This document shows positions 35,391 through 36,104 of a DNA stretch of 36,104 bases, in pieces. How positions within the stretch are numbered: position 1 is the stretch's first letter; the number at the start of each line of letters is the position of its first letter. The stretch is from Marinitoga hydrogenitolerans DSM 16785. Its GTDB lineage: Bacteria > Thermotogota > Thermotogae > Petrotogales > Petrotogaceae. A model generated the notes under the pieces. That model saw nothing but the letters and a program-made list of their open reading frames with translations, had not been told where the DNA came from and did no database searches. The stretch lies in the NCBI RefSeq assembly GCF_900129175.1, contig NZ_FQUI01000022.1, positions 1-36,104 of the forward strand, written 5' to 3'. The position numbers and the translations under genes are program-made.

Positions 35391-35418
35391 AAAGATATAT
35401 AAATAAAGATATATAAAT
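35391..35418. repeat. 14-bp tandem duplication upstream of bcd
   Basis: AAAGATATATAAAT occurs twice in direct tandem (35391-35404 and 35405-35418), between the bcd leader region and the minus-strand terminator. Confidence 0.85.
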
Positions 35419-35442
35419 AAAAAAGGCGGAGATTTCCGCCTT
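35414..35442 (-). terminator. Minus-strand terminator upstream of the bcd operon
   Basis: AAGGCGGA, loop GATT, TCCGCCTT form an 8-bp stem. On the minus strand it is followed by a run of T, the signature of a terminator for leftward transcripts. It would insulate bcd-etfBA from transcripts arriving from the insertion-sequence region. Confidence 0.75.
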
Positions 35443-35595
35443 AATCAATAATTTTTTGAACTATTTGATAACCTAAATGTTTCCGTTCTCCTGACTTTGA
35501 CAGTTGTTTTTTTTAGAAAAAGAGATAACGCTGAAATATAGCGAAAAATATCGATTGTTAACTTTTTATTAAAAGCAAAAGTGTCACCACACCCC
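35443..35595. other. Non-coding scar between terminator and transposase remnant
   Basis: No gene or convincing small ORF is seen. It is AT-rich with a few denser stretches such as CCGTTCTCCTGACTTTGACAG (35482 onward). That stretch lies at a plausible distance behind the transposase tail to hold the outer end of the older insertion sequence, but the matching inverted repeat is outside the window. With 35268-35442 it completes the intergenic region upstream of bcd. Confidence 0.4.
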
Positions 35596-35745
35596 CTAAA
35601 TTTTATATTTTTCTTTAAATTCATTATAAGGTGTTATTATTTTTGGCAATGGGATATTTAATACTTTTAATATCTTTTGTCCTAACTTATTTATTTTTGT
35701 TCGGACTATTAAATGTTGTTTTGCTGTTTTAAATTCTATGTTTTC
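35596..35745 (-). pseudogene. C-terminal remnant of a transposase-like gene, cut by an IS21-type element
   Basis: Only the last 49 codons remain, reading ENIEFKTAKQHLIVRT, then KINKLGQKILKVLNIPLPK, and ending NEFKEKYKI. The composition and the KILKVLNI(P)LPK pattern resemble the tail of DDE transposases of the IS4/IS1634 kind, but I cannot assign the family with certainty. Upstream (higher coordinates), the frame passes at about 35746 into the A/T-rich end of the IS21-type element and becomes meaningless Phe/Leu-rich sequence. The 5' part of the gene is therefore displaced beyond the inserted element or lost. Confidence 0.5.
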
Positions 35746-35823
35746 TGTAAATGGTAAAATAAAAAAGAACAAAAAGAGGAAAATAAAAATGAACAAAAAT
35801 GTACAAAAAGGATAAAGAAATAA

Positions 35824-35856
35824 TGGTATCCTTCTATTTCGGAAAGGAGGATACCA
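35824..35856 (+). promoter_or_regulatory. Hairpin that sequesters the istA ribosome binding site
   Basis: TGGTATCC (35824-35831) pairs with GGATACCA (35849-35856). Further T-A, T-G and C-G pairs extend the stem to about 11 bp, around an 11-base loop. The right arm contains GGAGG (35846-35850), the ribosome site of istA. Folding would block transposase translation. Confidence 0.6.
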
Positions 35857-35859
35857 AAG

Positions 35860-36104
35860 ATGGAGAAAGTAAAACAACAACTAGAAATAATAAGGATGAT
35901 GGGAATGAAACCAAATTTTTCTGAATTAGGAAGAATATATGGATATGACAGAAGAACAATAAAAAAATATTGGGAAGGATATGAAGGGAAACCAAAAAAA
36001 AGAAATAAGAAAAGCAAATTGGATAAATATTTAAAGAGGATAGAAGAATTGTTATCAATAAAAGGAATTACAATACGAGCATTATATGAAAAATTAAAAG
36101 ATGA
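35860..36104 (+). CDS. istA: IS21-family transposase IstA, 3'-partial
   Basis: The visible 81 residues contain a helix-turn-helix (ELGRIYGYDRRTIKKYWEG, about residues 22-40) followed by Lys-rich sequence and a second helical segment (LDKYLKRIEELLSIKGITIR). That is the DNA-binding start of IstA-type transposases, whose DDE domain would follow. The start ATG 35860 has AAGGAGG 9 bases upstream. The frame stays open to the last base of the window, so the gene is cut by the window and not necessarily broken. The partner ATPase gene istB is expected downstream. Confidence 0.8.
   Translation, partial: MEKVKQQLEIIRMMGMKPNFSELGRIYGYDRRTIKKYWEGYEGKPKKRNKKSKLDKYLKRIEELLSIKGITIRALYEKLKD

Follow-up and report, generated by a model that had tools for sequence, protein, structure and literature searches.

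The ribosome site of the transposase gene istA is buried in an RNA hairpin near the left end of an IS21-type element of Marinitoga hydrogenitolerans, and comparable locks, built from other sequences, appear to recur across the IS21 family. In the explanation that fits best, to which we give a probability of about 0.68, the hairpin acts as an RNA lock that holds back translation of istA except from messages initiated at an internal start. Computation established the hairpin, the conservation of its pairing, the surplus of such locks among family members and the placement of −10-like motifs beside them. The reasoning extends to many members of a family the protection from outside transcription that an earlier, sequence-only reading had suggested for this one element.

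The istA hairpin and its relatives

The window (36,104 nucleotides, the whole of one contig in a 2.3-Mb draft genome) ends inside the element at position 36104. Its relevant features are as follows.

35746–36104, + strand: left part of the IS21-family element, from the TGTAAATGG... terminus to the contig end; the match to the flanking repeat stops at 35745.
35755–35760, + strand: TAAAAT, by its sequence the likely −10 of a putative IS21-type terminal/junction promoter.
35824–35832, + strand: TGG-TATCCT, inside the 5' arm, a possible extended −10, with no −35, of an internal istA promoter.
35824–35835, + strand: 5' arm of the hairpin, from the fold, with its pairs kept in relatives.
35836–35844, + strand: loop of the hairpin, from the fold, with a predicted transcript start near 35839.
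35845–35856, + strand: 3' arm of the hairpin, from the fold, containing the SD core AGGAGG at 35845–35850.
35860–36104, + strand: istA, first 81 codons, from the translation and a match to model NF033546, cut by the contig end.

The terminus TGTAAATGG at 35746 also starts other copies in the same genome, and the G085 relatives begin with the same bases. Against the IS21 transposase model NF033546 the window istA gives a weak match (E 1.1e-7), under the cut-off on account of the protein's truncation where the contig stops. Its 81 codons are 72% identical to the N terminus of a relative in locus L064, which passes the same model (241.5 bits against a cut-off of 160) and whose IstA resembles the IS5376 IstA chains in the PDB; the partial match and the relative above the cut-off together place the element in the IS21 family by its transposase. 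The G085 relative element is 2130 bp long (two copies compared base by base, the ends of five inspected). Downstream of the istA pieces in the L035 relative lies a frame that we take, from its motif, to be IstB-like, IstB being the helper ATPase that accompanies istA in the family. Searches with the window piece as query found a match in 7 of the 21 genomes of the organism's family, and with a longer relative as query in 33 of the 103 genomes of the phylum.

The sequence flanking the element, 35486–35745, is another repeat, matching the ends of three further contigs of this genome at about 99% identity; there it continues beyond the insertion point and reads as a gene end on the other strand, so that the IS21 copy has apparently landed within a second multicopy element. 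The same genome holds further left-end copies (L007, L008, L009 and L011), several of which stop at contig ends or after tens of bases; the element is therefore multicopy or has left remnants. At L031, positions 245–1450 form an open frame in which, read from the protein, an N-terminal IstA portion is fused to a C-terminal IstB portion, and this fusion apparently arose by an internal deletion in the element.

Folding confirms the hairpin over the istA SD. On the + strand, 35824–35835 pairs with 35845–35856, enclosing the AGGAGG that lies upstream of the istA ATG at 35860; the stem that the sequence-only reading had seen burying this site is thus recovered, with its length corrected from 11 bp to 12 pairs, one of them U-G. 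The fold of 35790–35900 has an energy of −17.3 kcal/mol (z −3.25), equalled by 2 of 200 dinucleotide shuffles. For a read-through message, the predicted cost of opening the six SD bases is 8.3 kcal/mol, and only 5 of 142 ordinary genes have an SD opening energy of at least 8 kcal/mol. No intrinsic terminator was found in 35600–36104. A leader peptide starting from an ATG in the 5' arm (ATGGTATCC) was considered and rejected because the ATG is absent in four relatives (L106, L108, L109 and L137) and the frame relative to istA is not kept among relatives.

The sequence-only reading had staked the stem on its being preserved, with paired substitutions, in other IS21 copies, and it is preserved: across 17 aligned relatives 97.3% of 187 cells pair, compared with 42.0–67.9% for slid versions of the same arms. 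In three pairs both partners have changed, and none of the five measures is attained by any of 500 shuffles; the both-side changes amount to 5 cells, of which the close pair L108/L109 supplies two, leaving about four events. The arms read GGTATCC/GGATACC in the window, GATATCC/GGATATC in L070, GCTATCC/GGATAGC in L108 and L109, and TTGTATAC/GTATACAA in L137. Loop length, and with it the spacing of the arms, varies among the relatives, and one stem position is U-G in 12 of the 17. Compensatory substitutions combined with loops of varying length indicate that the stem is an RNA structure. A second clade of seven sequences is 90.9% paired and also has three pairs changed on both sides, a count reached by 6 of 500 shuffles; as for further pair types, 108 of 500 shuffles have as many. 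Some copies depart from the pattern: L022, left out of leader alignment A4, keeps a short outer stem with a different interior, L025 has no stem, L023 and L030 miss the usual left end, and L005 is a decayed copy with one pair broken and the ATG absent. As far as comparison of sequences can tell, the window stem is conserved as an RNA structure and exemplifies a trait that recurs in the IS21 family.

SD opening energies across the IS21 family

IstA-like frames were drawn from the phylum search, from named genome contigs, from 18 genomes of such loci and from four taxonomic classes. The scan of named contigs gave 250 pattern matches, of which 146 were confirmed and 80 loci kept. The classes were those of a Succinivibrionaceae MAG (26 of 274 genomes over the cut-off), Clostridium uliginosum (76 of 391), Amphibacillus (131 of 398) and a Flavobacteriales MAG (32 of 295); each class search contributes at most 30 loci, among the matches listed. 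A profile built here identified 293 IstA-like frames in 277 loci. We dropped 47 of them (28 short, 9 without an N terminus, 5 too near an end and 5 without a start), and the 246 that were left reduced to 156 at 80% identity. Excluding a further 26 whose SD was weaker than −6 kcal/mol, or which contained N, gave 130 dereplicated istA starts. The survey loci are L036–L329; the window copy lies outside the 130, and 12 named plasmid copies were examined apart. As a control we used 142 ordinary genes from the window and from loci L104–L183.

The median SD opening energy is 7.1 kcal/mol for the istA starts (n = 130), 2.0 for the ordinary genes (n = 142) and 4.0 for shuffled leaders. At least 6 kcal/mol is reached by 86 of the 130 istA starts, by 13 of the 142 ordinary genes and by 22.8% of the shuffled leaders; at least 10 kcal/mol, by 36 istA starts (28%), 3 ordinary genes and 3.1% of shuffles. 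Judged against their own shuffles, 47 of the 130 istA starts stand out at p ≤0.05. Within the 90 of the 130 elements that have a callable istB start, istA reaches 6 kcal/mol in 60 and istB in 16 (P 1.3e-8), with paired medians of 7.5 and 3.3 kcal/mol, istA being the more locked. The istA excess persists in four GC bins, which take in 123 of the 130 starts. Many of the surveyed sequences are related, and single linkage at 50% identity joins them into 49 clusters; with one member per cluster, 34 of 49 reach 6 kcal/mol and 17 of 49 attain p ≤0.05, and in 23 of 49 some member combines at least 8 kcal/mol with p ≤0.05 against its own shuffles. Since shuffled leaders reach 6 kcal/mol so often, the mild locks are partly due to chance; the strong ones are well beyond it.

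Individual groups vary. The Lachnospiraceae group has 8 of its 12 loci among the 130; 6 of these 8 open at 6 kcal/mol or more, and none of the 8 stands out from its own shuffles at p ≤0.05. Two dyads picked by eye fail as locks, that of L139 and similar loci opening at 2.0 kcal/mol in L139 and that of L083, at the start chosen by rule, at 0.6 kcal/mol. Five of the 12 named plasmid copies reach 6 kcal/mol, namely IS21 (6.7), IS100 (11.9), ISSen3 (14.9), IS1326 (11.0) and a Mesobacillus element (8.6); the other seven lie below it: ISCfr8 (5.0) and the copies from Niallia (4.7), B. glumae (3.7), S. meliloti (3.6), L. innocua (3.2), Sphingobium (2.4) and L. plantarum (0.9).

Three further arrangements were seen by inspection. 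Just upstream of istA, IS100 (L331) and ISSen3 (L333) have tight SD hairpins that, by eye, differ at matching positions, with arms GCTCTCCTG/CAGGAGAGC and GCTCCTCTG/CAGGGGAGC, respectively. In the Niallia circulans copy (L335, about 400–431; opening 4.7) the SD apparently lies in the hairpin loop, outside the stem (ACTAGTC...GACTAGT). In L053 (G039), of a distant IS21 type, it is the start codon that falls within a stem (CATCTGAATATCTC with GGAGGTATTCAGATG), and the SD opening energy is 7.5 kcal/mol.

Transcript starts, the 5' arm and rival explanations

In the mechanism that we propose, a transcript entering from outside, or begun at the terminal promoter, would carry both arms; the stem would then pair with the SD and ribosomes would initiate poorly, so that the hairpin would lower istA translation. 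The 5' arm would overlap or adjoin the −10 of an internal promoter, mostly of the extended −10 kind. Polymerase starting at that promoter would begin in the loop and leave the 5' arm untranscribed, and the resulting message would have a short leader with an open SD. Transposase would thus be made at the rate of the element's own weak promoter, whatever the landing site, and the benefit of the lock would be insulation from neighbouring transcription.

Candidate −10 hexamers were scored with a −10 matrix, and the start was predicted 12 bases downstream of the hexamer's first base. Of the hexamers that begin 75 to 20 bases before the ATG, the window has a single one scoring at least 3.5, TATCCT at 35827–35832 with a TG at 35824, and the predicted start near 35839 falls inside the loop. 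From that start the predicted SD opening energy is 0.6 kcal/mol, and from 35831 it is 0.4, compared with 8.3 for read-through. A consensus scan of 35600–36104 found 0 −35/−10 pairs, against 3.6 in shuffles. The sequence-only reading had held that a transcript beginning inside the left arm of the element would leave the site open. The predictions bear this out for a start within the hairpin and not for one elsewhere in the left arm, given that a message from the terminal TAAAAT, which includes the whole hairpin, is still predicted to need 8.3 kcal/mol; in the folding model, the SD is freed only if transcription begins inside the stem's 5' arm or beyond it. The lock in the window is solid, and a key in the form of an internal start is plausible.

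Elsewhere in the family, many 5' arms look like −10 boxes, as with TGATATACTTC in L130 (opening 10.7 kcal/mol), TGTTATAATCC in L142 (13.0), TGGTATAAT in L158 (10.1), TGTATACTTT in L137 (7.8) and TATAATTGTACC in L141 (7.1). The −10 tests used the 78 of the 86 locked starts that had a 5' arm in the minimum-energy fold. In 43 of these 78 the best −10 hexamer and the 5' arm region overlap, compared with an expectation of 19.2 under uniform placement and of 27.0 with arms exchanged between elements. Among the 62 locked elements with a −10-like motif, 28 have a predicted start 0–5 nt past the last base of the arm, against 11.1 with exchanged arms (P 0.0002), in a bin that was chosen after the histogram had been seen; a start so placed would free the SD. 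The count is 10.3 of 28 against 4.1 when weighted by cluster (P 0.0004) and, again cluster-weighted, 8.2 of 27 against 3.7 when the TG bonus is removed (P 0.005); equally locked shuffled leaders place the start there in 12.8% of 587 cases. With a wider bin and one member per cluster the excess is not significant (13 of 28 against 10.5, P 0.18). Where the −10 scores at least 5, the predicted own transcript loses at least 4 kcal/mol of the lock in 32 of 40 locked elements, and the other 8 keep it. No clear excess of −35 boxes appears in the 28 best-placed cases (6 of 28 at p ≤0.1); a TG precedes the −10 in 19 of the 28, under a scoring that favoured TG. From this placement we infer that the internal promoter is used.

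A group from the Amphibacillus class (L274, L276, L278, L285 and L293) carries hairpins of the CTCTCTCC...GGAGAGAG type over the SD, upstream of istA. Their best −10 lies far from the arm, and those of them that were tested are predicted to stay locked in their own transcript.

IS21 itself is described as having a −10 in its left end and a −35 in its right end, a promoter that is weak alone and strong in tandem (PMC10122671). The relatives here have the same layout, with the −10 on the left and the −35 on the right: a distance of twelve bases separates the terminus from TTGACT and TTGACA at the right ends of the G085 and G070 relatives, whose right termini (L064–L068 for G085, L070–L072 for G070) read ...TTGACTTTTACA and ...TTGACATTTACA, respectively. 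Of the marks of IS21 ends (a terminal CA, repeats in the ends and this −10/−35 layout), the window thus supplies a left end with TAAAAT, and the relatives the right end. In tandem copies with a 2-bp spacer the right-end −35 would, by our own count, stand 17 bp from the −10. The right-end −35 and the left-end TAAAAT would fit an IS21-type junction promoter. That control, as described in the available portion of the source, is transcriptional, and no translational lock is mentioned there (PMC10122671). The junction message would carry the hairpin, and either the lock leaks under strong transcription, or the muting is intended, or the hairpin is a general damper; this conflict weighs most against a model in which the start of a message decides how it is read. 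We put at somewhat under an even chance the fuller proposition that a dual-use arm has arisen repeatedly across a large part of the IS21 family, with the istA −10 region doubling as the 5' half of the SD hairpin, the start site setting transposase output and even the strong tandem-junction promoter being translationally muted.

The main rival to a lock that spares internally started messages is a plain translational damper, which would hold istA translation low on every transcript and leak by design; its messages would come from the terminal or junction promoter, and no internal promoter would function. Several observations suit it: the 0 −35/−10 pairs in window positions 35600–36104, the lack of a clear −35 enrichment in the 28 best cases, the −10 at the terminus and the −35 at the right end that relatives share with IS21, and the Bacilli leader group that has tight hairpins and no −10 in the arm. 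ISPpu9, moreover, is a tested case of a transposase ribosome site buried on the element's own message (PMC8450116, in the part available). We nevertheless consider a damper unlikely, as predicted starts just past the 5' arm are commoner than with exchanged arms or in equally locked shuffles. The inverted repeat might instead serve as DNA, an operator or a transposase binding site with the RNA stem as a by-product. A palindrome beside a promoter could covary too, and IstA, on binding, is presumed to occlude the end promoters (PMC10122671); however, the varying loops and the U-G in 12 of 17 relatives, which breaks DNA symmetry and keeps RNA pairing, favour RNA over a DNA operator, and the dyad is positioned on the SD. 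A transposase end site in particular was rejected, given that the last 300 bp of the G085 element contain no GGTATCC/GGATACC. We regard a DNA role as very improbable.

Less probable again is a switch that responds to a signal, be it temperature, an antisense RNA or a protein, instead of to where the transcript begins. Close relatives do occur in thermophiles such as Thermoanaerobacter and Thermosipho, and the available part of PMC8450116 has the ISPpu9 leader opened by an antisense RNA. Against this, warming is predicted to lower the opening energy of the window read-through message, 8.3 kcal/mol at 37 °C, only to 7.2 at 60 °C and 5.7 at 70 °C, a dependence too weak for an RNA thermometer, which was rejected, and Rfam has no family at gathering score in 35400–36104, its one sub-threshold match lying on the other strand (E 0.36). 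Chance or composition, in that AT-rich leaders with a purine-rich SD will occasionally fold, is the explanation to which we give the least credence. The 22.8% of shuffled leaders at 6 kcal/mol speaks for it, as do the Lachnospiraceae leaders, several of which pass that value with 0 of 8 beating their own shuffles at p ≤0.05; it does not account for covariation in two clades, for the istB control, for the persistence across GC bins or for 28% of starts at 10 kcal/mol or more against 3.1% of shuffles. Chance is refuted for the window's clade and stays in play for single mild cases elsewhere.

Relation to known elements and meaning

In IS10 and IS50, transcripts from outside fold back over the transposase ribosome site, and the transcript started inside lacks the 5' arm. 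To our knowledge, how a mobile element escapes activation by its landing site is understood in only a handful of cases, those of IS10 and IS50. The window hairpin belongs with them in placing a stem over the ribosome site of a transposase gene in outside transcripts. It differs in that another transposase family is concerned, with many members and arms of different sequence, and in that the IS21-type terminal promoter lies on the locked side. For the element's own start, which in IS10 and IS50 lies beyond the 5' arm, the window offers a prediction from one extended −10 without a −35, and the placement of motifs across the family favours it.

Other elements share single features with this arrangement. 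The leader of ISPpu9 forms a structure that buries the ribosome site, like the IS21 lock, and weakening it raised translation in a reporter; as the available text of PMC8450116 describes it, that leader differs in being a long one on the element's own message (start at +245), opened by antisense RNA and unconnected to outside transcription. IS1 likewise has host transcription running into the element, and differs in that read-through is productive there, blocking of upstream transcription having lowered transposition (PMC12428005, in the part available). Our searches of the open full-text literature turned up no report of an SD hairpin in IS21 elements.

If the lock holds, many members of a common transposase family would carry an insulator against the transcription of their surroundings, the IS100 and IS1326 copies perhaps among them. 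Transposition could then not be read off transcript levels, and the role of the IS21 junction promoter would need another look.
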